A DNA stretch of 24,390 nt, taken from positions 9,130 to 33,519 of the IMG/VR virus record IMGVR_UViG_3300029787_004173; one strand, given 5' to 3'. The DNA comes from a virus. Below are positions 2,611 to 23,229 of this stretch, in pieces; the stretch's first letter is position 1, and every line of letters starts with the position of its first letter. The notes under the pieces were generated by a model that did no database searches, was not told the DNA's origin, and worked only from the letters and a program-made list of their open reading frames with translations. Position numbers and translations under genes: made by a program.

Positions 2611-2802
2611 TTAAGTAAAACCTTTAGATTTTTTCTTTGGTTTATCTAGTACATGAATAACTGGAGGATTAAGAGATCTTGTATTCCACCAATATTCTCT
2701 TACTTCTTCCCAACTTTTTACTGTAATTTCTTTAGTATCATAAACTAATTTATAGTGATGACGATCATAAGATTTATCACATGTTTGTGTAAAATAAGTC
2801 AT
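2611..2802 (-). CDS. Small conserved cyanophage-type protein
   Basis: A 63-residue protein of unknown function, rich in Tyr and Trp, with a HYKLVYD segment, a KSWEEVREYWWN segment and a basic C-terminus (DKPKKKSKGF). The pattern resembles small hypothetical proteins I associate with T4-like cyanophages, but no function is known to me. I chose the ATG at 2802, which overlaps the upstream stop as ATGA. A TTG two codons earlier would also read in frame but is less likely. Confidence 0.7.
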   Translation of the reverse strand: MTYFTQTCDKSYDRHHYKLVYDTKEITVKSWEEVREYWWNTRSLNPPVIHVLDKPKKKSKGFT

Positions 2803-3299
2803 ATCCAATTTGGTTTTCTGGATGGGTCACGTAAATAATTAGATGCAACCCAAGGTTTGGACGATATATAACGTTTGTAAGCAGTAAAAGTGTCAATGCT
2901 TGTGTCATATTTAAACTGGTCGGGTCCTGCGAATGCAAAAGATTTAGGATCATGATCTTGTGGTGGAAATATTTGTGTACAATGTGCAATAGTTGATTGG
3001 CAACTATGTTTCTTACCATACCTATGAGTGTATTCATAGCATAAAGCAAGACCATGAAGTATCAACCATGTGTAATTATCTTGTGCCCAAACTGTACATG
3101 GGTGATTACGAAATGCACCCTTATCTGTTTTGTATGGTCTACCATCAAGTTTAGGTAATGTACCAAAACCATGACCCCATTTTTTTGATGCAACAATAGC
3201 AAGCATTTGACATGTTTCTAATGGCATCTTGACAATATGTTTATCGGGTAATACCTGTGCAGATTTTACTGCAGAGGGATCAGTTACAAAAATGTTCAT
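2799..3299 (-). CDS. Conserved phage protein of unknown function
   Basis: A 166-residue protein with a pattern found in many marine phage hypothetical proteins: an N-terminal MNIFVTDPSAVKSAQ, then LPDKHIVKMPLETCQML (17-33), a central FRNHPCTVWAQDNYTWLI (63-80) and CYEYTHRYGKKHSC (87-100). The conserved Asp, His, Lys, Glu and the NHPCxxW motif look like an enzyme active site, but I cannot name the reaction. Some such proteins are annotated as pyrimidine-dimer glycosylase-like; I do not see enough similarity to T4 endonuclease V to claim that. The gene lies 7 bases after the VWA protein gene and is coupled by ATGA to the next gene. Confidence 0.8.
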   Translation of the reverse strand: MNIFVTDPSAVKSAQVLPDKHIVKMPLETCQMLAIVASKKWGHGFGTLPKLDGRPYKTDKGAFRNHPCTVWAQDNYTWLILHGLALCYEYTHRYGKKHSCQSTIAHCTQIFPPQDHDPKSFAFAGPDQFKYDTSIDTFTAYKRYISSKPWVASNYLRDPSRKPNWI

Positions 3300-3306
3300 A
3301 CTGATA

Positions 3307-5472
3307 TTATACCACTAATTCTATAAATTCGCCAAGTATTTTTTTATTCATTTTTTTAGTCTTCAGACTTTTTACAAAAGCTCTTTTGATTTGTGCCTTT
3401 GTTGCATCTTCCTTTACCTCAAACTCATCTTCATTAGCCAGTGCATTTGATGATAATCCAAAGTAAGAATTATATCCAGAATTTTTGATTGTAAATGACC
3501 TTTCTCTTCTCCATCTCTTCATCATTTTATCATAAGTATCACCTTCATATCCAGCATACTGTCTGACAAATTGACCAGCATCTCTATTAGCAATGACTCT
3601 TATTCCAATAAGATTTGTATCAGAAAAAGTTTGTCTCAGATCTTTCAATAACAAATTTGTAACATCTGCCCAACGTCCTAGTCCTTCACAGGAATAAGTA
3701 TAACCTGTTTTACGATTACGCAATATACAACCGTCACTAACATAATTACTTCCCATCCAAGGTTTTTCTTCAGGATGACGTTGAAACTCTTTACTATACA
3801 TCATAGGAGAAGCTTCACCATCTGTGAGAATTACACACTGAACTTTCTCTACATTATTATTATTTTTGAATTGTGGAAGAATTTGATGAAGAGAAATAAT
3901 TGCTTCATTCAATGGAGTTCCAGAAAGATTCATTCCAATAGGAATATGATATTGAGTATAGATAGAACGAGAAAATGCAGTTGCCAATCTAAAAATATTT
4001 TTCATTTGAACTTCCAACTCTTTATTTTTAGTTTTGCTAGTGAATAAATTCATCATAGAAAACAATTCTGGAACAAGAGCTAAACCTTCTTTCTTTTCAT
4101 AAGCAAGTCTATGAAATGTATCTCCAACTGGAGGATGTTCATTAGTGAAAGCATAAACCTCAAATGGAATATTAATTTTCTTACAGAACCACAGTAGATT
4201 ATAAAGTTGTTTAACAGTGTCAAGCAAAACATCAGACATTGAACCAGACCAATCAAGAACAAATACTAATCCATGATTCTTACCTTCAGGAAGAGTAGTT
4301 ACTTTCTTGAATAAATCTTCATTGTATTTGTAAGTATGAAGTTTACTACAATCTAATACTCCAGTTCTAGCAGTAGTAGCACGTGCATATGAACTTGCAG
4401 CTTTCTTACACTCAAACTCTTTTACAAGATAATTAACTTCCTTTTGAGCATTTCTTTTAAACTCTACAAACTTACTATCAACTTCTTCATAAAGATTACT
4501 AGAATAAGGAAGTTTTCTTTCTTTCATCATTTTGTTCCAATCTTGCTGTTGATCAACCCAAGATAAATTAAGATTATTGTGTATAAATTCATTATCAATA
4601 ACAACTTTTTTTAAGTTTAACTTAGGTAATTCAAAATAAACATTTTCACGATCACTGTGAATATTAGTAAGATCTTTAATAGCATCTTCTAAAGCATCAG
4701 CAGTTTCAACTTGTGGTTCATTTTGAAATCCACCTTGAGACTGAGGTTGAGGTTCAAATTGTCCTTCGCCACCTTCCATATCTTGTGATTTAGTTTGATA
4801 ATCTACTTCTCCTTCCTCACTTTCTTCTTCACTTTCTTCTTCACCAATATCATTAGGTATATTACCACCACCTTCAATATCCATTCCAGAATATGTATTG
4901 ATTTCTTCTTCTTCTTTATTCTTAAGTTCTTCCTTACAAAGATTATATAACTCTTGTGCTGCAGATAAAGTTTCATCAAACGTTTCTGCATTTCCAATTA
5001 AACGGACAATCTGAGTTTCAACATCTGAAAAAGATATATCATTCCACGCACCAACCTTGAAATATAAATTAACCCTATCAGCAATATTAAAATCAGTAAG
5101 ATCTTTACCATCTATACTAAAGAAATCTTGATCATTGAGTTCATTATAACCATTATAAAAACATTTAGCAAGTCCTGCATATCTTCTCTTCATCAACTTT
5201 TCAATTCTTACATCCTCTACAATGTTTACAAATGATGGGGGAATCTGTATTTCTTTATACCACTCTCTATCAGGTGTATAAAGAGCATGACCAACTTCAT
5301 GTGCCACTAATGCATCATATACATTATTACTTGCTCTATCCCATTGAGGAAGGGTTAAAACACGAGTATGAACATTGAACACAGCAGTCTCAACAACTTT
5401 ATGTTCTACTATAAGATCTTCTGTTGCAAGAAGTTTAGCGAGTTGGGATTTGATTTCGTGTTTTACTGCCAT
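3307..5472 (-). CDS. VWA-domain protein with HEXXH metallopeptidase-like site (CobT-like)
   Basis: A 721-residue protein with two recognisable parts. Near the N-terminus is HEVGH (58-62) in the context ALVAHEVGHALYT, a typical zinc-binding HEXXH helix, followed by VEDVRIE (85-91) whose acidic residues could supply the third ligand. The middle (about 186-260) is acidic and low in complexity, with Glu runs and a Gln/Gly-rich stretch. The C-terminal half is a von Willebrand factor A domain with the MIDAS motif DWSGS (407-411), a later SGTPL threonine and LTDG. VWA proteins of this kind pair with MoxR-type AAA+ ATPases (CobT with CobS, NorD with NorQ, ViaA with RavA). The phage cobS gene lies 1.1 kb downstream, which makes a functional pair likely by analogy. 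Cyanophage homologues are often annotated simply as peptidase. Proteolytic activity is not demonstrated by the sequence. Confidence 0.88.
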   Translation of the reverse strand: MAVKHEIKSQLAKLLATEDLIVEHKVVETAVFNVHTRVLTLPQWDRASNNVYDALVAHEVGHALYTPDREWYKEIQIPPSFVNIVEDVRIEKLMKRRYAGLAKCFYNGYNELNDQDFFSIDGKDLTDFNIADRVNLYFKVGAWNDISFSDVETQIVRLIGNAETFDETLSAAQELYNLCKEELKNKEEEEINTYSGMDIEGGGNIPNDIGEEESEEESEEGEVDYQTKSQDMEGGEGQFEPQPQSQGGFQNEPQVETADALEDAIKDLTNIHSDRENVYFELPKLNLKKVVIDNEFIHNNLNLSWVDQQQDWNKMMKERKLPYSSNLYEEVDSKFVEFKRNAQKEVNYLVKEFECKKAASSYARATTARTGVLDCSKLHTYKYNEDLFKKVTTLPEGKNHGLVFVLDWSGSMSDVLLDTVKQLYNLLWFCKKINIPFEVYAFTNEHPPVGDTFHRLAYEKKEGLALVPELFSMMNLFTSKTKNKELEVQMKNIFRLATAFSRSIYTQYHIPIGMNLSGTPLNEAIISLHQILPQFKNNNNVEKVQCVILTDGEASPMMYSKEFQRHPEEKPWMGSNYVSDGCILRNRKTGYTYSCEGLGRWADVTNLLLKDLRQTFSDTNLIGIRVIANRDAGQFVRQYAGYEGDTYDKMMKRWRRERSFTIKNSGYNSYFGLSSNALANEDEFEVKEDATKAQIKRAFVKSLKTKKMNKKILGEFIELVV

Positions 5473-5641
5473 GTGTTTTCTTAATTATGAACCTATTATA
5501 CGACGAAACCCTACCGTTGGCAGGGTTTAGTAGACGCTTTATCAACTGTCTACGTCTTTCTCTTGCAGCACGTAGTGCCTGTGGTTTAAGTTTTCGTTTG
5601 GCTTCCTTCTTAGAGTGGTGTTGCCAGTTTGGAGTGTTCAT
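5435..5641 (-). CDS. Small basic protein (68 aa), unknown function
   Basis: The ATG overlaps the gp46 stop as ATGA. The protein is strongly basic, with KKEAKRKLKPQALRAARERR (11-30) likely forming an amphipathic, nucleic-acid-binding helix. Its last 38 bases overlap the start of the VWA gene in another frame, an unusually long overlap for this window, so the C-terminal part may be less constrained. The basic N-terminal half looks like a genuine protein; a hairpin and a TATAAT box fall inside the C-terminal coding part. I do not recognise a family. Confidence 0.55.
   Translation of the reverse strand: MNTPNWQHHSKKEAKRKLKPQALRAARERRRQLIKRLLNPANGRVSSYNRFIIKKTHGSKTRNQIPTR
5495..5500 (-). promoter_or_regulatory. 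Possible -10 box before the VWA gene
   Basis: TATAAT lies 22 bases upstream of the VWA gene ATG, just after a hairpin at 5506-5528. No convincing -35 is present at 17 bases, and such boxes arise by chance in AT-rich DNA. Confidence 0.25.
5506..5528. other. Hairpin (inverted repeat) inside the 68-aa gene
   Basis: AAACCCT and AGGGTTT form a perfect 7-bp stem, extended by a mismatch and a CC/GG pair around a GTT loop. No T-run follows on either strand, so it is not a standard terminator. It may act as an RNA processing or pausing site between gp46 and the VWA gene. Confidence 0.45.
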
Positions 5642-7350
5642 GACTCTATACGGGAGAATCCTTTTATTTTATCAAATTTTAACACATTGTCAAATTTATC
5701 ATGTAGATCAGACTTATGAGAGATCACAAAAATATTAGCATCCTTAATAACAAATTTAATAATCTTAAGGAACTCATCAGTTCCAAAACCATCAAGAGAA
5801 CTATCAAACACCTCATCCATGATAAGAAGATTTGTATTCACGGAGTTCTTGACTCTGGCAACTTCTCTCCATGTAAAGAGTAATGCTAAATCAATTCTCA
5901 TCTTTTCACCTTCACTGAATGATGAATATGAAAAATCCTCATGGATGGGTGACTTTACAGTTTCACTAAACTCTTCATTTAATGTGAAATTAATATAAAA
6001 ATCCATCAACTGTAAGTATCTATTAACTTGTTGATTTATAAAAGGTAGATACTTTTTGATTATTTTTGTCTTTACTCCATCATCTTTCAACAGAGAATAT
6101 GCAAAATCATAATGAGTGATTTCATCTCTTATTGAGGAAAGATCTTCAATTGTTTTTTTGAGGTTTTCTTTAAACTCTGTTAATTTCTCATGTTCAGTAT
6201 TTCTGTTTTTAAACTGTTTGGTAATTGTTTGAACTTCTTCTTCAAGATCTCTGATTTGTCTCTGGTTGAGACTGATACGAGTATTGTTTTGAGAAATGTC
6301 ATGGTTGAGTTTAGTGATTTCCTCTGATAGTTGGGTGAAGTAACGTTCTCGGTCTTGCTCTTTTTTGATAGTCTCTTCAAGGTCTTTATAACCCTTCTTG
6401 AGTTCCTTCGCTTTAGTTTGAACGTTACTAATTCTATTTAATCGAAACTCTTCTTCTATTGGTTGAGTGCATGTAGGGCATGATACATTATCTTTAAAAA
6501 ACTTATGTTCCTTGGTAAGGGTTGATACTTTATTCGATAATTTACCTTTTAGATTGTTAAGTTTTAGTAACTTTTCTTTTGCACCAGTAAGTTTTTTTTG
6601 CTCTTCTATAAGACCATATACTTTATCTTCTAATCCCTCAGTTTGCATTATCAGAACACAAACTTCATCACCTAAATTATCTTTTTTCTTTTGATTTGCT
6701 GCAATATTATTCTTACCCTGTTCTTCTAACTCTTTAATAAAATTTTTCTGCATAGACATCTTATCTTTAAGATTATCTTTCTTAAGATCAAGAGATCTTA
6801 ATTGTTCTTTTTGTGAACGAATCTTTTCTTTAATAAGATTATTCATTGCAGAGAAAATACGAATATCCAAAAGATCCTCAATAACTTCCCTACGATTATT
6901 ACCTGTCAGTTGCATGAAAGGTACAAAAGTACTACTACCCAAAATTACAATTTGAGTAAATGATTTATAATTTACTTTCAATATAGTATCTTCTAATATT
7001 TTTTGATTATTTCTATCATCAGCCTGTTTATGTAGTGGATTGCCATTCACTTCAATATCAAATATGTTTGGTTTAATCCCACGTCTAACCAAATAATCTC
7101 TATTATTAACATTAAATTCTATTTCAACAACACAATCTTTTTCATTGGTAGTATTAATTAACTGACTTTTATTAATTTTACGAAATGGTTTATTAAACAA
7201 AGCAAAAGTAAGAGCATCCAACATAGTAGACTTTCCAGAACCATTTGTACCAATAATCAAATTAGTATTACATTGTTGAAAATCTATTTCAGTGTAGTTA
7301 TTACCAGTGCTTAGAAAATTTTTCCACTTAATTTTTTGAAAGGTTATCAT
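5638..7350 (-). CDS. 46: gp46 recombination endonuclease subunit (Rad50/SbcC-like ATPase)
   Basis: A 570-residue SMC-like ATPase. It shows Walker A GTNGSGKST (34-42), two long coiled-coil arms (about 165-285 and 300-410) joined at a zinc hook CPTC (291-294), the ABC signature FSEGE (478-482), Walker B LLIMDEVFDSSLD (508-520) and an H-loop SHKSD (544-548). With gp47 it forms the nuclease complex that resects DNA ends for recombination-dependent replication and host DNA breakdown. The length is close to T4 gp46. Its ATG overlaps the stop of the DUF3110-like gene as ATGA, and its own stop overlaps the next start in the same way, so the gp55-gp47-DUF3110-gp46 group reads as one coupled unit. Confidence 0.97.
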   Translation of the reverse strand: MITFQKIKWKNFLSTGNNYTEIDFQQCNTNLIIGTNGSGKSTMLDALTFALFNKPFRKINKSQLINTTNEKDCVVEIEFNVNNRDYLVRRGIKPNIFDIEVNGNPLHKQADDRNNQKILEDTILKVNYKSFTQIVILGSSTFVPFMQLTGNNRREVIEDLLDIRIFSAMNNLIKEKIRSQKEQLRSLDLKKDNLKDKMSMQKNFIKELEEQGKNNIAANQKKKDNLGDEVCVLIMQTEGLEDKVYGLIEEQKKLTGAKEKLLKLNNLKGKLSNKVSTLTKEHKFFKDNVSCPTCTQPIEEEFRLNRISNVQTKAKELKKGYKDLEETIKKEQDRERYFTQLSEEITKLNHDISQNNTRISLNQRQIRDLEEEVQTITKQFKNRNTEHEKLTEFKENLKKTIEDLSSIRDEITHYDFAYSLLKDDGVKTKIIKKYLPFINQQVNRYLQLMDFYINFTLNEEFSETVKSPIHEDFSYSSFSEGEKMRIDLALLFTWREVARVKNSVNTNLLIMDEVFDSSLDGFGTDEFLKIIKFVIKDANIFVISHKSDLHDKFDNVLKFDKIKGFSRIES

Positions 7351-7610
7351 TTTTTAGGTTTAGGAGGAATTACAATGTCATCAGGAGTAATAACTGCATA
7401 CTTATAACTATGCATTTTACAAGTTTTTAATGCAAGTTCATCATCAACTTCAATTACATCCATTTCTTTATCTTCTTGATCTTTTACCATCATAGCATAT
7501 CTTACGGCATCGTCTTCTTCTTGGAAAAGAAACAAAACTTTATGTCCATGTTGATCTTGAACAGCATAAGCACCTTCATCTTTACCATCTTTAAGAGTTA
7601 AAAGCCACAT
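7347..7610 (-). CDS. DUF3110-like small protein between gp47 and gp46
   Basis: An 87-residue protein of unknown function. The pattern EGAYAVQDQHGHKVLFLFQ (12-30) followed by EEDDAVRYAMMVKDQ, an acidic VIEVDDELALKTC and a C-terminal YAVITPDDIVIPP matches what I recall of DUF3110, a short domain typical of cyanobacteria and plastids. That points to a host-type origin, although assignment is from memory. It is coupled on both sides: its start shares a base with the gp47 stop and its stop overlaps the gp46 ATG. This position suggests a link with the gp46/47 nuclease or simply an insertion tolerated there. Confidence 0.78.
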   Translation of the reverse strand: MWLLTLKDGKDEGAYAVQDQHGHKVLFLFQEEDDAVRYAMMVKDQEDKEMDVIEVDDELALKTCKMHSYKYAVITPDDIVIPPKPKK

Positions 7611-8644
7611 TATTCTACCTCACAAGCTTGTCTATAAAGATTTTGGAAAATATCTTTAATAAAAGTCTTACTAAATTCAAATTCAGATTCATCAATATAT
7701 CGATTTAATATTGATAATGTATTTTCATCTTCATCTATTTCAAAATTTTGATTTTCTTGTATCTCAAAATTTTCAACAACTTTTAAATCCTGAACACCTA
7801 CAGAATATAATTTATCAATAAATTTTTCAAACTCTTTGGATTTAGATTTTTTGCGAACAATTATCTTTACAATTTTATTTTTATATTCAGTAGCATTAAA
7901 TAATTTATGATTTGTATCTTCATAATAGATATTGTAAAATAATTTATATGGATTATTAATTGGAGTATGAGTAAGAGTTTCAGTATCAAAAATATGAAAT
8001 CCTCTTTTATCATTCACATCATTCCAAAACATCTCATATGGATTACCCAAATAAAATATCTTTCCATTATTAGAACGAGTATGAAAATGTCCTGAATAAA
8101 CTTTTTCAAATTTATTAAATATTCCTACATCCATTCCAGTTTCCATCATATGCCCACGAGTAGCCTTGAAACCATTTACTTCAAGATGACCCATGGCAAC
8201 CTTTGCCTTAGTATTATTAATTAATTTCTCAGTTTCTTCAAAATTCTCAGAATTAATCCAAGGTAAAAACAAAATCTTTAATTTATCTAAAGAAATTTCT
8301 GTTGCTTTTGAATACGTCTCAATATTTGCATAATCTTTTAATAAAAGTTCTGGAGAATTTACATTATTGGTATTTTTATAATAACAATCGTGATTTCCAA
8401 TAAGAGCATGGACTTTATATTTCTTAAGAGGTTCAAATACAACTTTCTTTGACCACTCAAGACTTTGCAAATCTATTGCTTTACGACTGTCAAATATATC
8501 TCCCATATGAATCACAGTGTCTATCTTATGCTCCTCTAAAGAAGGAAAGAAGACATCACGATAAAACATCTCAAAGTAATCATGAAGATGTTTAGAACCT
8601 TTTCTGGCTCCATAATGCGTATCAGTTATAATAGCTAGCTTCAT
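7610..8644 (-). CDS. 47: gp47 recombination endonuclease subunit (Mre11/SbcD-like)
   Basis: A 344-residue calcineurin-like phosphoesterase. The metal-binding motifs are all present: DTH (8-10), GDIFD (48-52), GNHD (83-86), GHLE (152-155) and GHFHT (185-189). It is the nuclease partner of gp46 and acts on DNA ends in recombination and replication. Length is close to T4 gp47 (339 aa by memory). The ATG overlaps the gp55 stop as ATGA. Confidence 0.97.
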   Translation of the reverse strand: MKLAIITDTHYGARKGSKHLHDYFEMFYRDVFFPSLEEHKIDTVIHMGDIFDSRKAIDLQSLEWSKKVVFEPLKKYKVHALIGNHDCYYKNTNNVNSPELLLKDYANIETYSKATEISLDKLKILFLPWINSENFEETEKLINNTKAKVAMGHLEVNGFKATRGHMMETGMDVGIFNKFEKVYSGHFHTRSNNGKIFYLGNPYEMFWNDVNDKRGFHIFDTETLTHTPINNPYKLFYNIYYEDTNHKLFNATEYKNKIVKIIVRKKSKSKEFEKFIDKLYSVGVQDLKVVENFEIQENQNFEIDEDENTLSILNRYIDESEFEFSKTFIKDIFQNLYRQACEVE

Positions 8645-9165
8645 CGGTTATTATTTCGATACTGAATGTTATCTTTAATTGTATTATATTCAGCATTACT
8701 ACCAGATAATGCAGTATCATCAACCATCATAACTTCATCAAATCCACTCTTTTCAATAATTTTTGTTTTAATATCTAATTGTTTTTTCTCTTTTTGAATT
8801 CTTCTGAGGAACGCATAATGTATAATCTGCGTAAAGTATGCAAAAGGATTACGAGATTTCTCAGGATCAAAATTATGAATATACTGAACACAGTTTTCTA
8901 TACCATCAGAAATCATATCCTCACGAAACATATAATTAACAAAGTTCGGTTTATACGACAAATGAGTAGCAATCTTTAAAAAACACTCACCAAGATAGTT
9001 CGGTATGGGTGGTTTACCCTCCCATGGTCCAGACTTAGGAGGTTCTTTATCAGGATATTTTTTGATAAATGCTTCTTTAGCTATAGCAACTTTTCCTCTA
9101 TAAACAATCATTGCCTCCAACAATTCTTTATTATTTACATAATGTTCCGTCTTTTTTCTTGGCAT
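8641..9165 (-). CDS. 55: gp55 late-transcription sigma factor
   Basis: A 174-residue member of the highly reduced sigma-70 family used by T4-like phages. The conserved core NYMFREDMISDGIENC (77-92) and NPFAYFTQIIHYAFLRRIQKEKKQ (106-129) corresponds to the region 2-type core-binding and -10 recognition segment. gp55 directs host RNA polymerase to TATAAATA late promoters, together with the gp45 clamp and gp33. Three exact copies of that box occur in this window. A good sigma-70-type promoter lies just upstream, consistent with synthesis before late transcription. The start is the ATG with a GGAA nine bases upstream. Confidence 0.95.
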   Translation of the reverse strand: MPRKKTEHYVNNKELLEAMIVYRGKVAIAKEAFIKKYPDKEPPKSGPWEGKPPIPNYLGECFLKIATHLSYKPNFVNYMFREDMISDGIENCVQYIHNFDPEKSRNPFAYFTQIIHYAFLRRIQKEKKQLDIKTKIIEKSGFDEVMMVDDTALSGSNAEYNTIKDNIQYRNNNR

Positions 9166-9198
9166 GGCATTGGAGTTTCCGTTTTCTTAATTGTTTTT

Positions 9199-9227
9199 AT
9201 TATATCACAAAACCTAAGGCTTGACAA
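9199..9227 (-). promoter_or_regulatory. Sigma-70-type promoter for gp55 operon
   Basis: TTGTCA (9227-9222) and a perfect TATAAT (9204-9199) are separated by exactly 17 bases on the minus strand, with gp55 starting 33 bases downstream. This is the best host-type promoter in the window and would express gp55, gp47 and gp46 early or in the middle phase. Confidence 0.75.
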
Positions 9228-9249
9228 GGTGGTAAAATATGAGTAGAAT
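9221..9249 (+). promoter_or_regulatory. Possible antisense sigma-70-type promoter
   Basis: On the plus strand a perfect TTGACA (9221-9226) and TAGAAT (9244-9249) are 17 bases apart. The -35 overlaps the -35 of the gp55 promoter on the other strand. A transcript would run into the 137-aa gene and uvsW in antisense. Confidence 0.45.
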
Positions 9250-9276
9250 AACTCTGTTAGGGGTTAAGGGATAAGT

Positions 9277-9690
9277 TTAGCTTTCTTTATTATTAATATT
9301 TTTCTTAAATAATACTTCAAGATACTTTCGAGCATCTTTTACGGAAGAAATATATCCCATTTTAGGAGAAGGTTTCATATATCCAGTAGAACTATAAATT
9401 TCTACATCTTCATCAGAAATAAAATCATTATATATTTGAATTAATCTATCATCTGTAGTTTCAGTCATAGTAATTATCTTATCAGGTTTTATCATAAAAA
9501 AATCTTCTTCAGATAATTCAATCCACGGTTTAACTTTAATATGAGATCCATAAGTATCACTATACATCATCATAGTAATAGGATTCTGTAATATTATAAT
9601 AGGATAATCGCCACTATCATCCACAGATATAAGAGAAAATATTTCTTCTCCTGATACTAATTTTAGTATACTGTAAAATTCATCTCCCAT
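9277..9690 (-). CDS. Conserved cyanophage-type protein (137 aa)
   Basis: A protein of unknown function. The N-terminal half is beta-rich, with ILKLVSGEEIFSLISVDD (8-25) and IIILQNPITMMM (31-42), a pattern that could form an Sm-like barrel; this fold suggestion is only an inference. It continues through VKPWIELSEEDFFMIKPDKI and ends with GYISSVKDARKYLEVLFKK. The order of segments resembles a conserved hypothetical protein I recall between uvsW and gp55 in T4-like cyanophages. Its ATG shares one base with the uvsW stop (TAATG). The end of the gene is followed by a 111-base promoter region. Confidence 0.8.
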   Translation of the reverse strand: MGDEFYSILKLVSGEEIFSLISVDDSGDYPIIILQNPITMMMYSDTYGSHIKVKPWIELSEEDFFMIKPDKIITMTETTDDRLIQIYNDFISDEDVEIYSSTGYMKPSPKMGYISSVKDARKYLEVLFKKNINNKES

Positions 9691-11156
9691 TAGTTTTTAA
9701 TCGGTATGTTGACTATATCATAATTAAAATTTTCTTCATTGTAAACTTTAATTCTTTCTATTAGATGATTTAAAGTATAATTTCTTTTAGATTTATAACT
9801 AATATCATCAGCAATATCATATAAAGTTGCTCTAGTTTTTTGATTACCTTTTCTAAGTACCCTCCCTATTGATTGTAAATTTCTAATTCTAGACTTAGAC
9901 GGAGAAGCAAAAATGACGTTGTGAAGGTTTTTAATATTAATACCTGTGGAGAATGTTCCATAAGACGCTACAATGATTGCATTTTTTTCTTTTTCAGTAA
10001 TTTCACGAACTTTTTCTCTTTCTTCAGCATCTACTCCACCATGGATAAAGAAAACTTTTCGATTTTCAATAATGTTATTATTATTTATTAATTCATATAA
10101 TGGTTCACCATGCCCTTCCACTCTGGCATAAAGTATAAGAGTATTACCTTTTAAATCAAGAGCAAGATTTTTAATAAAGTTATTTCGACGATGATGACCA
10201 ATTATATACTGAACTTCTTCTTCAAAGTTTTCAAATTTATTTGGTGGGTGTTTCAATAGAAGTACATTGATATCGAGTTTGGCAAGATGTCCCTTCTTCA
10301 TTAACTCGTCAGTTTTAATTATTTTATAGGAAGGTCCGAACAATCCCTCAAGTACCCACTTATGTGTTTGCGTTCCATCAAGAGTTCCTGTAAATCCGTA
10401 ACGATACTTAGCATCTGATAGTTTAGTCATTATAGATATAAGTGACTTTGATTTAAATTGGTGAGCTTCGTCTCCAACTACAACAGAAAATCTCTCAAAA
10501 TATTGTCGGGGAAGTTTGTAGATTGATTGCCAAGTCGTAATTATGACCTGAGAATCTGTTTCTCTTTCTTTTCCAGCGTATATCTTGTGACAAAATGAAC
10601 CAACATCCCATCCATAATCCGCAAAATCTTTATACATCTGTTCTACTAAAGATGTCGTCGGAACTACTATCAGAATACTTAGTTTTTTTTCAACGTAATA
10701 TCTCACAATCCCGTATATCATCAGCGACTTTCCTGAAGCAGTTGGAGATATCAATAACCTACGATTGTATTTTAAGGCATCGTGTACTCCCTCTATTTGA
10801 TAATCTCTAGGTTTATGCCTAGAAATAGCTGTCATATAATCTTTAACACCTTCTTTTGATATATTATCATTGACTTCAAAAGGAGTTCCATAATATTTGT
10901 TTTCTAAAAATTCATAAGTATATTCATGATCTTTACAGAATTGAACTACTCTATCTAATAATCCAACATATATTTCTTTAGTATTAACATTAAAAAGTCT
11001 TATTTTACCATCCCAAAATTTCTTTTTATATGCAGGTGAAAATTTTGCACCAGGAACCTCAAAGGTAAACTGATCCGACAACTCATAATATACATGTTCC
11101 TCTGAAGATATCTGAAGATTTACTTCATTCTTCTTCGATATAACCAAATGTGACAT
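9690..11156 (-). CDS. uvsW: UvsW recombination DNA helicase
   Basis: A 488-residue superfamily 2 helicase. An N-terminal ~100-residue domain precedes the RecA-like core. Visible motifs are the Q-like RDYQ (117-120), Walker A SPTASGKS (137-144), DEAH (229-232), motif III FTGTLD (255-260) and motif VI QSIGRVLRKG (428-437). In T4, UvsW unwinds branched intermediates and R-loops, and so helps switch from origin-dependent to recombination-dependent replication. The length is near that of T4 UvsW. It follows uvsY by 42 bases with no strong promoter that I can confirm. Confidence 0.96.
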   Translation of the reverse strand: MSHLVISKKNEVNLQISSEEHVYYELSDQFTFEVPGAKFSPAYKKKFWDGKIRLFNVNTKEIYVGLLDRVVQFCKDHEYTYEFLENKYYGTPFEVNDNISKEGVKDYMTAISRHKPRDYQIEGVHDALKYNRRLLISPTASGKSLMIYGIVRYYVEKKLSILIVVPTTSLVEQMYKDFADYGWDVGSFCHKIYAGKERETDSQVIITTWQSIYKLPRQYFERFSVVVGDEAHQFKSKSLISIMTKLSDAKYRYGFTGTLDGTQTHKWVLEGLFGPSYKIIKTDELMKKGHLAKLDINVLLLKHPPNKFENFEEEVQYIIGHHRRNNFIKNLALDLKGNTLILYARVEGHGEPLYELINNNNIIENRKVFFIHGGVDAEEREKVREITEKEKNAIIVASYGTFSTGINIKNLHNVIFASPSKSRIRNLQSIGRVLRKGNQKTRATLYDIADDISYKSKRNYTLNHLIERIKVYNEENFNYDIVNIPIKN

Positions 11157-11198
11157 AACATAATGTTCATTTGGAAATATTTAGTAGCCTTTGTCAAG

Positions 11199-11627
11199 CT
11201 ACATACCTGCTTGGAATCTATTCCATTCTATTGCATTTTTAATCTGAAATGTCCTATTAGAAACATTTTTAATTATTTCTTCAAGAAATTTTAATGTAGT
11301 ATCATAATATCTTATTTTGAGATCTAACTGTGTTAGTTTCTCATCTGCCTCTAGATGCCTTTGTATTGCATCTTTCTCTCTAACCTTATACGGAAATGGT
11401 TCTTCAGCATATACCTCAGGTTCTGCCTTTCCTGTATAGTAATTATACCTTTCCAGTTTTACTCTGTTATATGAGTCTCTTGCTTTTTCACGCAATAAAG
11501 TAATCGTATTATAGACAGTATAATACTTGGAATGTAATTGAGGAATTTTTAGTGATTCATCATGTAGGTTATCAGGATCAATGACAGCATCACGTTGCCA
11601 CATTTCCTGAATTTTGTCAAGATTCAT
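11199..11627 (-). CDS. uvsY: UvsY recombination mediator protein
   Basis: A 142-residue helical, charged protein matching T4 UvsY (137 aa) in length and in several positions: an N-terminal LDKIQEMWQRDAVID, a central YNYYTGKAEPE (residues 61-71) and the C-terminal NRTFQIKNAIEWNRFQAG, compared with the SRGFAIKHI...FEAG end I recall for T4 UvsY. UvsY loads the UvsX recombinase on gp32-coated single-stranded DNA. Its ATG overlaps the stop of the gp3-like gene by 4 bases. The neighbour uvsW supports the assignment. Confidence 0.88.
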   Translation of the reverse strand: MNLDKIQEMWQRDAVIDPDNLHDESLKIPQLHSKYYTVYNTITLLREKARDSYNRVKLERYNYYTGKAEPEVYAEEPFPYKVREKDAIQRHLEADEKLTQLDLKIRYYDTTLKFLEEIIKNVSNRTFQIKNAIEWNRFQAGM

Positions 11628-12178
11628 AAAGGAGTTCTTCCGTCTGGTTTAACTATATTATACACAGTATACTTGAAAACTACCTCTGCTGTAAAGTAGT
11701 TAACATCGGTATCTGATGCTTCGAAATCTAATGAAGTTAATCCAATAGGAAATAAATCACTAAATTTTACAATAGCAGTGTCTCTATAATTACTATTCAA
11801 TATATGTAAAGATCCATCACTATATGCCTCTTCACTATCTCTTATTCCTTGAGTGTTAGTTGTTAAATCTTTATATTCTTTTGTAGTTTCTGGATATCCT
11901 AATCCTCTCATCCAATTATGGATTTTCATATAATTCTCAAGTTCTTCATCAACTAAAAATCTTAATGCAAAATCACCATATTGTAACTTATCACCAGGAA
12001 CATCAACATCTTTTAAATAACTTGGTTGTATAGCAGTTCCCAATATAATTTCAGGTATTCTAACAGAATTGGAAAAAAAAGTTACTTTAGGTTCTTTTGC
12101 TAAAGTAAATTTAAATCCAATAGGTGATAGAAAATTCCTATTTTGTATTTGGTTTTCAAATGCACCTCTAGTTGCCAT
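11624..12178 (-). CDS. 3: gp3-like tail completion and sheath stabiliser protein
   Basis: A 184-residue protein close in length to T4 gp3 (176 aa). The start NRNFLSPIGFKFTLAKEP and the phrase VPGDKLQYGDFALRFLVDEE fit a tube-like beta fold shared by gp3, gp19 and gp54. T4 gp3 caps the tail tube and helps end tail length. The location between gp23 and uvsY/uvsW is where cyanophage gp3 is usually annotated. Identification is by pattern and position from memory; a related tail-tube terminator is the main alternative. Confidence 0.75.
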   Translation of the reverse strand: MATRGAFENQIQNRNFLSPIGFKFTLAKEPKVTFFSNSVRIPEIILGTAIQPSYLKDVDVPGDKLQYGDFALRFLVDEELENYMKIHNWMRGLGYPETTKEYKDLTTNTQGIRDSEEAYSDGSLHILNSNYRDTAIVKFSDLFPIGLTSLDFEASDTDVNYFTAEVVFKYTVYNIVKPDGRTPL

Positions 12179-12180
12179 TA

Positions 12181-12453
12181 TTAACCTCCGTTACCTCCTC
12201 CACCATTTCCACCACCGTTGCCACCACCGTTTCCATTACCACCATTACCATTGCCGTTTCCACCATTTCCATTTCCATTACCATTTTTCTTACCATTTTC
12301 ACCACTATTATCATCTGGTTCAACAAATCCTCCTCTACCTACATGGTGTCCGTAAGGAATTTTTTTGCATTTTTTATCAGTATAGCAATAATATTTGCCA
12401 GGTGGACACCTCTTAGTAGCTGCCTCTTCAATAAATTTATCAAAATCTTTCAT
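12181..12453 (-). CDS. Gly/Asn-rich small protein
   Basis: A 90-residue protein with two parts. The N-terminal 47 residues contain CPPGKYYCYTDKKC (16-29), a compact three-Cys pattern, then HHVGRGG. The C-terminal ~37 residues are almost only Gly and Asn (repeats of GNGNGG and GGNGGG). The pattern resembles small cyanophage proteins with a Cys-rich head and Gly-rich tail that I recall as hypothetical; a virion surface or adhesion role is a guess. The ATG shares one base with the preceding stop (TAATG). The repeat length probably varies between relatives by slippage. Confidence 0.75.
   Translation of the reverse strand: MKDFDKFIEEAATKRCPPGKYYCYTDKKCKKIPYGHHVGRGGFVEPDDNSGENGKKNGNGNGNGGNGNGNGGNGNGGGNGGGNGGGGNGG
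12184..12290. repeat. Low-complexity coding repeat (GGN/AAY-type)
   Basis: Degenerate short repeats of CCACC, CCATTACC and CCGTTTCC (plus strand) encode the Gly/Asn-rich tail of the 90-aa protein. Unit boundaries vary. Confidence 0.7.
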
Positions 12454-12614
12454 TAGTCGTTAAGAATTTGTTCGTACCATTGCTCACTCATACCCATAAT
12501 AATATTACCAGCCATATCAGTATTTTCAGCATATCCTTCACGAATTAAATAATCAGTAATCTTTTTCGTGCGTTCATGTGCTTCCTTTAATTGTTTAGGA
12601 GTAAAGTCTTTCAT
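12453..12614 (-). CDS. Small conserved cyanophage-type protein (53 aa)
   Basis: A 53-residue protein of unknown function beginning MKDFTPKQLKEAHERTKKIT and ending MSEQWYEQILND. The pattern, with a GYAENTDMAGNIIMGM middle, is like small conserved cyanophage proteins. I chose the internal ATG at 12614 instead of the longer in-frame ATG at 12662 because the longer form would read through the terminator hairpin that follows gp23. Confidence 0.7.
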   Translation of the reverse strand: MKDFTPKQLKEAHERTKKITDYLIREGYAENTDMAGNIIMGMSEQWYEQILND

Positions 12615-12643
12615 GGTAATACTACTTTTATTTGTATTTAGAC

Positions 12644-12672
12644 AAAAAAAGAGACCCGTCAAGGGTCTCTTT
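12644..12672 (-). terminator. Rho-independent terminator after gp23
   Basis: A perfect 10-bp stem AAAGAGACCC/GGGTCTCTTT with a 5-base loop, continued on the minus strand by a run of T (stem plus tract TTTTTTT). It lies 22 bases past the gp23 stop and is the strongest terminator in the window. Confidence 0.92.
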
Positions 12673-12694
12673 GAAAAGATATGTAATATCTGAA

Positions 12695-14059
12695 TTACAT
12701 GAGGTTTGTAACCTTAACACGACGATAGTACTTATTGCTATTACGTGCAATAATACCAGGATCATCGAGAGAAGCACCACGGGCGAAGGGATTAGCAACG
12801 ATTCCGTAACGAGTCTTAAACCCGATTTTTGGTTGGAAGGTGTTCTCACCAACTGCACGAACCATCTGTAATGGAACGTAAGGGCAGTAGAACAGTCCTG
12901 CGTCATAAGGTGAAGAACCTTTATAACCTGCAACGTAGTACTGATTAGCAGCAACGTTTGCAGCATAAGGATCGATGTATACTCTATACTTACCTTGAAG
13001 TACACCAGCAAATGTATTGCCTGTGTCATCAACGTTAAGATTAGCATTAAGTGCTGGAGTGTAATCTAATACACCTGCCATTGTTAGGGCACTAGCAACG
13101 TCTGCAGAACAGAGGATCATATTACCCTTTCCACGACGAGTTTGCTGTGCGATTGCGTTAGCGTCTCTTTCGATCTGGAAAATAAGTCCCTTGAACTTTT
13201 CAACTGACCATCTACCATTTGAGTCGATGTCTAAGTCGAATGTACCACCTGTAGCAACGTTTGCCTGAGCACCAGGAACAGCAACGTTATAGATTGTTCT
13301 AATAACTTCTCTGTTGATTTCAGCAAGAATCTCAGTAGAAAGAATGTTGGCAAGTTCTGCCTCTGCATTCAATCCGTGGATTGCTTTCAAGTCTTGAGCA
13401 AGCTCTAATGAGTACTCAGCTTTTAGGGCACGTGACTTTGCAGTAACGGTGACTTTCTCGATTGAGAATGCCATTTCGTTGAACTGGTTGTCAGTTGCAT
13501 CTCCAAGTGCTTCAGAGTTTGCAGTTGTCATACCCTGACCTACGTTGTAGGTAGTAGCATCAGCAGTAGCAGGGAATGTTCCGTCAAGTGCACCTGGGTT
13601 AGTACCCTGTTGGTTAGTTGTACCTAAACCAACTGCTGCTTGAGTCATTCCAGCAGTCTTATTGAATCCTGCTGACTGACCAGAGAATGCAGTATCTGCT
13701 TCGTTGTAGAATGCTTCCTCTCCACTTTGTGTGGCATAACGAGAACGCATTGCAAAGATTAGTCCAGTAGGACCATTCATTGGTTGAACACCAGCTAGGT
13801 CATAAGCGACCAAGTTTGGCATTGCTCTTCTGATCAGACTGATAAGTACTGGATCGAAGTTTGATATCCCTGAACCTGTTGAGTTTGTAGGGGCTGCTTC
13901 ATTAAGGAACTCTTGTTCCTCTTTTAAAATTTTTTCTTGATTCTCCAGAAGAACTGCGGTAACCATTCTCTTATGAGAATCTGTTATTTTCTCTTGACCA
14001 TCATGGTCTAGAATTGGTGCCCACTTCTCCTGCAGATGTTCAGCATTGAACGCTTGCAT
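12695..14059 (-). CDS. 23: gp23 major capsid protein
   Basis: A 454-residue major capsid precursor. Recognisable pieces are SNFDPVLISLIRRAMPNLVAYDLAGVQPMNGPTGLIFAMRSRY split over residues 66-108, the AKSRALKAEYSLELAQDLKAIHGL motif of gp23 and a C-terminal RRVKVTNLM. It assembles the prohead lattice around the gp22 core. The N-terminal helix-rich propeptide ends with LNE|A at residues 52-55, which fits the [L/I]xE consensus cut by gp21, leaving a mature protein of about 400 residues; this cleavage is inferred. A ribosome binding site AAAGG lies about 8 bases before the ATG. Confidence 0.98.
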   Translation of the reverse strand: MQAFNAEHLQEKWAPILDHDGQEKITDSHKRMVTAVLLENQEKILKEEQEFLNEAAPTNSTGSGISNFDPVLISLIRRAMPNLVAYDLAGVQPMNGPTGLIFAMRSRYATQSGEEAFYNEADTAFSGQSAGFNKTAGMTQAAVGLGTTNQQGTNPGALDGTFPATADATTYNVGQGMTTANSEALGDATDNQFNEMAFSIEKVTVTAKSRALKAEYSLELAQDLKAIHGLNAEAELANILSTEILAEINREVIRTIYNVAVPGAQANVATGGTFDLDIDSNGRWSVEKFKGLIFQIERDANAIAQQTRRGKGNMILCSADVASALTMAGVLDYTPALNANLNVDDTGNTFAGVLQGKYRVYIDPYAANVAANQYYVAGYKGSSPYDAGLFYCPYVPLQMVRAVGENTFQPKIGFKTRYGIVANPFARGASLDDPGIIARNSNKYYRRVKVTNLM

Positions 14060-21346: not shown

Positions 21347-21577
21347 CTATAGAACTTGAATAACTCCCTTAATATCTGGTATTTCCATCATCAATTTTTT
21401 TTCAATACCTTGTTTCAATGTCATAACACTCATAGCACATGTCTCACATGCACCACCTAATCTCACCTTAACATAACTATCTTCAGTCTCAACATACTGT
21501 AAAGAACCACCATCTGCTTCGATGTATGGTAATAATTCTTCAAGAACTTTAATTATATTTTCGTCGTTTAATTCCAT
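21347..21577 (-). CDS. NifU C-terminal domain protein (Nfu-type Fe-S scaffold)
   Basis: A 76-residue single-domain NifU-like protein. It shows the family pattern LPYIEADGGSL (residues 13-23), VKVRLGGACETCAMSVMTLKQGIEKKL (split 32-58) and EIPDIKGV. The CxxC pair (CETC) that binds a transferred Fe-S cluster is intact. In cyanobacteria, Nfu is the essential Fe-S carrier that supplies photosystem I, so a phage copy would help maintain ferredoxin- and photosystem-type Fe-S proteins during infection; this role is inferred. I chose the ATG at 21577, which shares one base with the gp17 stop (TAATG), over an upstream GTG. Placement inside the tail/packaging block is unusual. Confidence 0.9.
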   Translation of the reverse strand: MELNDENIIKVLEELLPYIEADGGSLQYVETEDSYVKVRLGGACETCAMSVMTLKQGIEKKLMMEIPDIKGVIQVL

Positions 21578-23229
21578 TACATATAGTCCCACATATAAGA
21601 TCTATCTCCATATTCATCAGTGTGCCATCTATCTCCATCGCCATCTACAAAACTATCCATATCTTCAAACCCATCAGAAATAAATCCAAACGGTGCCATG
21701 TCTTGTTCTATCTGGTTCTTTTGTTCTTCATAAATTCTTTTACGAACATCATTGTCCGTCATTTCTTTGAAATAATCTTGTGCAACTAACCATGCAAATA
21801 TGACAAGACACATTGCTAAATCATCATTACATCCCTCTTCTGCCTCAAATGAATTATGTTTCTGTGCAAATGTTGTTAATTCTGAAATAATATCATAATC
21901 TGAAGTAAGTAGTTTATCATCTTCCAGTAACGTCTTAAGATTAGAACAACCTAACTTTTTAACTGCAGCTGTCATTCTTACACCAAGTTGTGTTTTCTTA
22001 CCTGAGAAACCTTGTCCAACTATTTGACCATTTCTTCCTCTCATAGAAGCCATTAAAAGGTTTTCATATTCAAGATCATATTGAAGAATACTTGCAACTT
22101 GATCTCCAATATCATTAACTTCTATTAGTAAGTAAGCATTATTATATCCTTTTGCTACATCAAGTATAATATTAGGAAATAGCATAGGTTTAATTTCATT
22201 ATTCCTATATTTTGCAACTACCTTATATGGAAACTCAGTAGTATCAAAAACAATAAATGCAGAATAATCATTACCTAAACCACGTGCTACATCAACACTA
22301 ATTACATAATTATGTTCTTTTTGTGGATTTTCGTAAATATCAAGACCAGCATTTTTCTTTAAAGGTTCTTCATATACAAGATTTCGAAGTTTTGCTGGAC
22401 TAATAAGAGTATTAACAGAACCTAAAAATTCACATTCAAACTCAATCTTAAACTGCTGCTCTGAAGTGTTTGCAATAGTTTGTCTTTTCCATTCAGCATC
22501 TCTACCAGGAACTTGTGACCAATGCACATCAGTAGGAACATATTCATTCTTACCTTTCTCTGCATCATGCCAATACCTATAAAAATGATTCATCCCGTGA
22601 GGGGTTGAAACCATTATGACTTTGGTTGTTTTACCAGAAGTGATAGTAGGATATACTGAGCTGAAGAATGCTTCAGCAATATGATTAGGAACAAAGGCAA
22701 ACTCATCCAAAAATAGAATGTTGAAAGACATACCCCTAACTGCAGATGCAGAGGTAGATGCTGCAAGTATTTTAGATCCATTTTCTAACTCCAATGATCC
22801 TTTATTCCAAGATATAATACCCTGTTGCATCCATTTAGGTAAGTTTTCATATGCAATTTGTAATCTACCTAATAAATCTCTTGCAGTCGCTGCTTTGTTT
22901 GCAAGAATACCAATATTTACACTATCATTAAAAACACAATAATGCAAAAGATATGCTACAGACGTAGTAGATTTACCAGTTTGACGTGGCATTTTACATA
23001 TATTAAATCTATTGCCATGAAAATTATTAATTAACTTTTCTTGAAAATCATATGGTTTAAATTGTACAAGTCCCTCATCAAGAGAAACAATCTTCATGTA
23101 ATTATTTGCAAAATAAACTGGATCTTCTTTACATTTTAAGAACTCAATAATGTTCTCTTGTGTAAATTCAATCTTAGTATTTGCTTTTTTTAAATTGGGA
23201 TTACCAAGATATACATCATTATTAGACAT
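21577..23229 (-). CDS. 17: gp17 terminase large subunit
   Basis: A 550-residue packaging motor. The ATPase has Walker A PRQTGKST (81-88), Walker B ILFLDEFAFV (171-180) and the coupling motif STPHG (208-212). The C-terminal RNase H-like nuclease has D313 in SVDVARG, E370 in LLIEVND and D469 or D470 in NDDLAMCL; D313 and E370 are 57 residues apart, the same spacing I recall for D401 and E458 of T4 gp17. It cuts concatemers and pumps DNA through the gp20 portal. The start is 3 bases after the gp16 stop. Confidence 0.98.
   Translation of the reverse strand: MSNNDVYLGNPNLKKANTKIEFTQENIIEFLKCKEDPVYFANNYMKIVSLDEGLVQFKPYDFQEKLINNFHGNRFNICKMPRQTGKSTTSVAYLLHYCVFNDSVNIGILANKAATARDLLGRLQIAYENLPKWMQQGIISWNKGSLELENGSKILAASTSASAVRGMSFNILFLDEFAFVPNHIAEAFFSSVYPTITSGKTTKVIMVSTPHGMNHFYRYWHDAEKGKNEYVPTDVHWSQVPGRDAEWKRQTIANTSEQQFKIEFECEFLGSVNTLISPAKLRNLVYEEPLKKNAGLDIYENPQKEHNYVISVDVARGLGNDYSAFIVFDTTEFPYKVVAKYRNNEIKPMLFPNIILDVAKGYNNAYLLIEVNDIGDQVASILQYDLEYENLLMASMRGRNGQIVGQGFSGKKTQLGVRMTAAVKKLGCSNLKTLLEDDKLLTSDYDIISELTTFAQKHNSFEAEEGCNDDLAMCLVIFAWLVAQDYFKEMTDNDVRKRIYEEQKNQIEQDMAPFGFISDGFEDMDSFVDGDGDRWHTDEYGDRSYMWDYM

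Follow-up and report, generated by a model that had tools for sequence, protein, structure and literature searches.

The gene studied here belongs to a family that is already known both as 'peptidase' and as 'CobST', and that is also a core gene of T4-like cyanophages; since the pair and its partner are thus on record, the question raised by the locus is which of the two labels, 'peptidase' or 'CobT', is the wrong one. The gene lies in a window of 24,390 nucleotides, the whole stretch of DNA analysed, from a virus record of 33.5 kb (IMGVR_UViG_3300029787_004173) whose genes are arranged as in T4-like cyanophages (Kyanoviridae). Its product of 721 residues, read from an ATG start (3307–5472; this and all other window features given below are on the minus strand), is covered end to end by the phrog_459 'peptidase' profile (residues 3–720, E = 5.3e-260, 866 bits). 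The known family, phrog_459 or T4-GC 146 of cyanophages (S-PM2d119, PSSM4_122), is the same family at full length, has the same synteny with gp46 and cobS and shows no structural difference from the window protein; relatives are present in 463 INPHARED records, with at least 80% of the query covered in 456. No tested basis was found for the 'peptidase' label of phrog_459, and the family has been published as 'CobT mistakenly annotated as peptidase' (Liu et al., PMC8651126). What is new here is a previously unrecognised distinction from CobT, namely a zincin site within a MoxR/VWA machine that appears intact in sequence and in a structural model.

Genes in the record are ordered from terminase, capsid and tail genes to uvsW, gp55, gp47, gp46, the VWA gene and cobS. 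Directly upstream of the VWA gene, in a conserved context, is gp46 (5638–7350), which encodes an SbcC-like recombination endonuclease subunit. The gene of the CobS-like MoxR-type AAA+ ATPase (1108–2205, 365 residues, phrog_249) starts 1.1 kb downstream of the VWA gene's 3′ end, the distance given in the initial annotation. Between the two genes are a pyrimidine-dimer DNA glycosylase gene (2799–3299; PF03013, 5.8e-17) and an open reading frame for 74 residues with a PsbN domain (2301–2525; PF02468, 7.5e-7; phrog_8051), the latter being uncommon at this spot (1 of 89 related loci). A short ferredoxin-dependent bilin reductase of the PcyA/PebS type is encoded right after cobS (491–1111; PF05996, 1.5e-17), and a phage-encoded NifU-like (Nfu) iron-sulfur scaffold domain of 81 residues (21347–21592; PF01106, 1.7e-22) sits between the terminase and tail sheath genes.

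The translation confirms that the two motifs singled out in the initial annotation, HEVGH at residues 58–62 and the MIDAS motif DWSGS at residues 407–411, occur in one and the same protein. From the N terminus, the protein comprises a zincin-like domain (residues 1–195; 4888–5472) delimited by an AlphaFold2 model and PDB matches, an acidic low-complexity linker (residues ~194–250; 4723–4893) that is predicted to be disordered (pLDDT < 50 at 194–250), a VWA domain (residues ~400–680; 3433–4275), and a conserved C-terminal helix (residues 692–720; 3313–3399) that is present in the model and in which F699, N709 and F716 are invariant. The acidic linker and C-terminal VWA domain had been likened to those of CobT, and the likeness holds and goes further, as CobT (TIGR01651, PF06213 and PF11775; PDB code 9uka) shares the N-domain, the acidic linker, the C-terminal VWA domain and an AAA+ ATPase partner. 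In the MIDAS motif (4240–4254), D407, S409 and S411 are identical in 90 of 90 sequences, i.e., the window protein and 89 relatives from IMG/VR, and G410 in 89 of 90. The best PDB matches of the VWA domain in Foldseek are NorQ-NorD VWA complexes (E = 4.9e-5) and, by analogy, the C-terminal helix would be comparable in position with the C terminus of NorD that docks on NorQ (PMC13036017). Direct searches of Pfam, NCBIfam and PDB sequences with the VWA protein returned no significant match, and tblastn against plasmids gave none; weak Pfam matches to GLF and M13 were taken as noise.

Shuffling produces an HExxH motif by chance in 1.3% of cases when the first 120 residues are permuted and in 2.6% when the whole protein is, and the motif alone is therefore little proof of a metal site. 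Chance does not explain, however, that H58, E59, H62, N83, E86, D87, R89 and E91, which fall in HEVGH (5287–5301) and in the segment NIVEDVRIE at residues 83–91 (5200–5226), are identical in all 90 sequences. Seven of these residues (H58, E59, H62, N83, E86, D87 and R89) are also unchanged in an alignment of 13 sequences with identities down to 21%, including those of Pelagibacter and Ochrobactrum phages. The AlphaFold2 model of the N-domain (pLDDT 89.3, pTM 0.85) consists of a helix, three strands, the HExxH helix (residues 49–65) and a glutamate helix (residues 79–97) that holds NIVEDVRIE, and thus places HExxH in an active-site helix and a glutamate ligand in the helix that follows. The top eight PDB matches of the model are all HExxH gluzincins, i.e., ArdC (three), selecase (three), PprI and IrrE, each match being non-significant on its own (all E > 0.03, best E = 0.035). 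The spacing of 24 residues between H62 and E86 is the same as that between H205 and E229 in ArdC, for which the crystal structure identifies H201, H205 and E229 as metal ligands (PMC7213743). The model suggests that the N-domain is an intact, small gluzincin-type domain with H58, H62 and E86 as predicted metal ligands and E59 as the predicted catalytic base; a buried HExxH helix lacking a third ligand, the outcome that would have spoken against the initial annotation, is not what the model predicts.

ArdC, IrrE/PprI and selecase, which are of the minigluzincin type, share the predicted fold of the N-domain but, unlike the window protein, possess neither a VWA domain nor a dedicated MoxR partner. 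The predicted metalloprotease site of ArdC is dispensable for the known phenotype of that protein (PMC7213743), a precedent that calls, by analogy, for caution in assuming proteolysis by the N-domain.

The ATPase encoded downstream matches AAA_5 (PF07728, 1.7e-17) and CbbQ_C (PF08406, 6.8e-5), and cobS is listed among the cyanophage core genes (PMC3037559). Of 89 IMG/VR cyanophage-type loci, 76 have it downstream of the VWA gene in the same orientation, as do 41 of the 42 with at least 3.5 kb of downstream sequence. Relatives of the two genes are equally numerous in INPHARED (Synechococcus 365, Cyanophage 61, Prochlorococcus 24), the agreement being one of totals and not of a record-by-record join. 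The MoxR/VWA pair that had been anticipated is thereby corroborated, and neither synteny nor the INPHARED counts indicate that one gene is regularly present without the other. In another viral group, 67 of 71 loci have the MoxR and VWA genes side by side in the same orientation, and in the four exceptions a contig end cuts one side. A MoxR-type AAA+ gene is thus adjacent to a VWA gene with an intact MIDAS motif, and gene content and order support the assignment of the phage VWA protein and the cobS-like gene product as a MoxR/VWA pair. One long locus without cobS (L014) looks chimeric past ~6–7 kb, as judged from its open reading frames, and was not taken as a true exception; in its region ~6000–12882, phage genes extend to ~6.9 kb and are followed by long open reading frames on both strands, unlike the phage part.

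On balance, we favor with moderate confidence the assignment of the 721-residue protein as the VWA partner of a CobS-like MoxR ATPase, equipped with a gluzincin-type metallopeptidase domain of its own, and not as a cobaltochelatase subunit. The metal binding, proteolysis, docking geometry and substrate class that we infer for such a pair could be combined as follows. The MoxR ATPase would assemble as a ring on which the VWA domain and the C-terminal helix would dock, as NorD does on NorQ, and the MIDAS would grip the substrate at an acidic residue. Rotation of the VWA domain relative to the tethered N-domain, driven by ATP, would strain the bound substrate and present it to the tethered peptidase domain, where it would be nicked or clipped. 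The likeliest substrates would be phage proteins of replication, recombination or late transcription, or DNA-bound host proteins. The VWA protein of NorQD binds the ring through a finger and the C terminus, and rotation driven by ATP stretches the linker to the N-terminal domain of that protein (PMC13036017).

It is possible, though in our estimate unlikely, that the pair instead acts as a non-proteolytic remodeling or metal-insertion chaperone of the NorQD/CbbQO type, in which the HExxH metal would serve substrate recognition or metal delivery without any cutting. NorD (with NorQ) and CbbO (with CbbQ) do resemble the window pair in joining a MoxR ATPase to a VWA adaptor, the VWA domain has its nearest structural counterpart in NorD complexed with NorQ, the C-terminal domain of the ATPase is of the CbbQ/NorQ type, and NorQD twists iron into its target (PMC13036017). 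The dispensable site of ArdC and the absence of the site from several related phages are likewise consistent with a chaperone. The invariance of the catalytic E59 in 90 of 90 sequences argues against it, as mere metal binding would not need this residue. An HExxH peptidase domain, conserved in the window family, is absent from the descriptions of NorD and CbbO that were consulted.

Over the N-domain, the profile of the cyanophage VWA proteins matches one built from 'CobT' proteins of other phages, among them SSU5, CRP-810 and Rhizobium N1_15 (E = 3e-20); between this second profile and true CobT, the match spans the full length (E = 4e-49). PF06213 (CobT) detects relatives that bear HExxH (pR997, 1.9e-12; CRP-810, 2e-15; SSU5, 2e-37) but reaches a best E of 0.074 directly against the window family, so that homology is established via the profile chain. 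On these profile comparisons, the N-domain is common to the window family and CobT. The metal site is not: HExxH occurs in 0 of 32 readable true CobT sequences (strong PF06213 matches from Alphaproteobacteria), where the corresponding columns are mostly S-[MFY]-A-L-[RK] and the ED motif is mostly EQ. The initial annotation had regarded the metallopeptidase-like site as foreign to CobT, which is correct for the site but not for the domain that carries it, since that domain belongs to CobT (PF06213).

Among readable CobT-like proteins from other viral contigs, the site is kept in 64 of 71, and the seven without it read QExxK, GExxE or GExxK. The aspartate of the ED motif is also changed in six of the seven viral proteins that lack the HExxH histidines; a phylogenetic sign test of the coupled loss of histidines and D87 is non-significant, with few independent events and low power. 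The histidines are gone while VWA domain and MoxR gene are kept in nickie, Stenotrophomonas ANB28, L184, the L245 group and L257, with L020 and L026 among the loci concerned, and peptidase chemistry is thus dispensable in some lineages. A tree of the VWA proteins contains at least six changes in the state of the site, four of them on well-supported branches, and true CobT is nested on a long branch among site-bearing viral proteins. Because the root of this tree is arbitrary, the direction of the change is likely rather than proven, and the metal site was likely lost in CobT from a site-bearing ancestor. The comparison points to a defunct metallopeptidase domain in CobT; a literature search for CobT in conjunction with HExxH found no such paper. 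With the site kept in the phage partner and lost in CobT, the pair is likelier to be a protein-remodeling or protein-cutting machine than a vitamin-making one.

The published alternative is a viral cobaltochelatase, in which the CobS/CobT pair, together with host CobN, would place cobalt in the corrin ring and so raise B12 output for ribonucleotide reduction (PMC8651126). This we consider improbable, even though homology links the N-domain with CobT and the ATPase with CobS. Also in its favor, cyanobacteria possess CobN but lack cobS and cobT (PMC9227772), so that host gene content allows the proposed hijacking of the host enzyme, which the results below make less likely. The window VWA protein has no match to the CobT equivalog TIGR01651 (cut-off 759 bits), against which a true CobT (L140) scores 1112.9 bits as positive control, and the window ATPase scores 69.5 bits against the CobS equivalog TIGR01650, below the cut-off of 558.55 bits. 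Furthermore, the metal site that is kept in all 90 phage relatives is gone from true CobT, and the CobN partner (PF02514) was found in 0 of 16 phage records, of which 15 are isolate genomes searched whole, while PF02514 was matched in a Synechococcus elongatus control. Related pairs also occur in phages of SAR11, Salmonella and V. cholerae, hosts not known to use the aerobic CobN route. CobT itself was observed apart from CobN: among 65 alphaproteobacterial genomes in which CobT was matched strongly (E < 1e-60; sample G001–G125), 29 yielded no CobN/ChlH-family gene, part of these absences possibly being due to incomplete assemblies, and in the Caulobacter control CobT was matched but CobN was not. 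Canonical CobT, or CobST, may therefore have work beyond cobalt chelation.

As to what a metallopeptidase pair might act on, the neighborhood offers some indication. Of the 54 viral loci that extend at least 2 kb upstream of the VWA gene, 52 have gp46 there in the same orientation. In cyanophages and Ochrobactrum OC, the pair is accompanied by gp46/47 and gp45/44; SSU5, nickie and Rhizobium N1_15 have ligase and DNA polymerase III genes around it, ICP2 has primase and helicase genes, and in pR997 and pMAQU02 the neighbors encode a recombinase and an exonuclease, with radC or toprim genes. A pyrimidine-dimer glycosylase gene lies close by in 37 of 89 cyanophage-type loci, downstream of the VWA gene, and is likewise close to the pair in 17 of 71 loci of the other group. 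These surroundings support a possible role in DNA metabolism; nearness to replication genes may also merely reflect shared early expression. A farther-reaching proposal, which we regard as doubtful, is that a widespread AAA+/VWA metalloprotease borne by phages, phage-plasmids and ICEs strips or cuts proteins on replicating DNA, in principle a viral analogue of Spartan with its unfoldase, and that CobT is a site-less descendant recruited for cobalt insertion. A role as counter-defense protease, in which the pair would disable a host complex for defense or restriction much as ArdC counters restriction during conjugation, is very unlikely. In its favor, no structure matches the N-domain better than ArdC, and the pair is carried by conjugative plasmids and ICE-like elements as well as by phages and phage-plasmids. 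That match is non-significant, however, and a core gene present in almost every T4-like cyanophage, in fixed synteny with replication genes, is unlike typical accessory anti-defense genes.

The assignment as a MoxR-driven metallopeptidase would bear on how cyanophage genomes are read. cobS is used as a marker of cyanophage communities, and surveys of cyanophage metabolism count it as a vitamin-B12 gene (PMC9983427). If the pair is such a machine, a very abundant supposed auxiliary metabolic gene of the ocean would be unrelated to B12, and several hundred sequenced cyanophages would carry an unexamined core protease.

Putative metallopeptidases of the DUF2201_N family (PF13203, COG3864 type) have an HExxH domain N-terminal to a VWA-like domain and are encoded beside MoxR. 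The window protein resembles them in this concept, HExxH followed by a VWA-like domain, and our data give no basis for direct homology. PF13203 was matched by 1 of 53 members of the window family (E = 0.0033), the window protein itself being unmatched, and on this one weak match it was rejected as parent family; in 58 Alphaproteobacteria no PF13203 match above the cut-off was found.

Two observations concern loci outside the window. The pyrimidine-dimer glycosylase gene adjoins the pair in two unrelated phage lineages, represented by L027 (6037–6531) and by the window. In SXT/IncA/C-type and Marinobacter plasmids, an HExxH-VWA protein (L035, 4989–6644; L034, 4980–6734) is encoded in one cluster together with bet or recT, an exonuclease, an AAA ATPase, DUF3150, and radC or toprim genes; a literature search on DUF3150/VWA operons of SXT-type elements found nothing useful. 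The VWA proteins of these two clusters keep HEAAH or HESAH and the motif EDxRIE.
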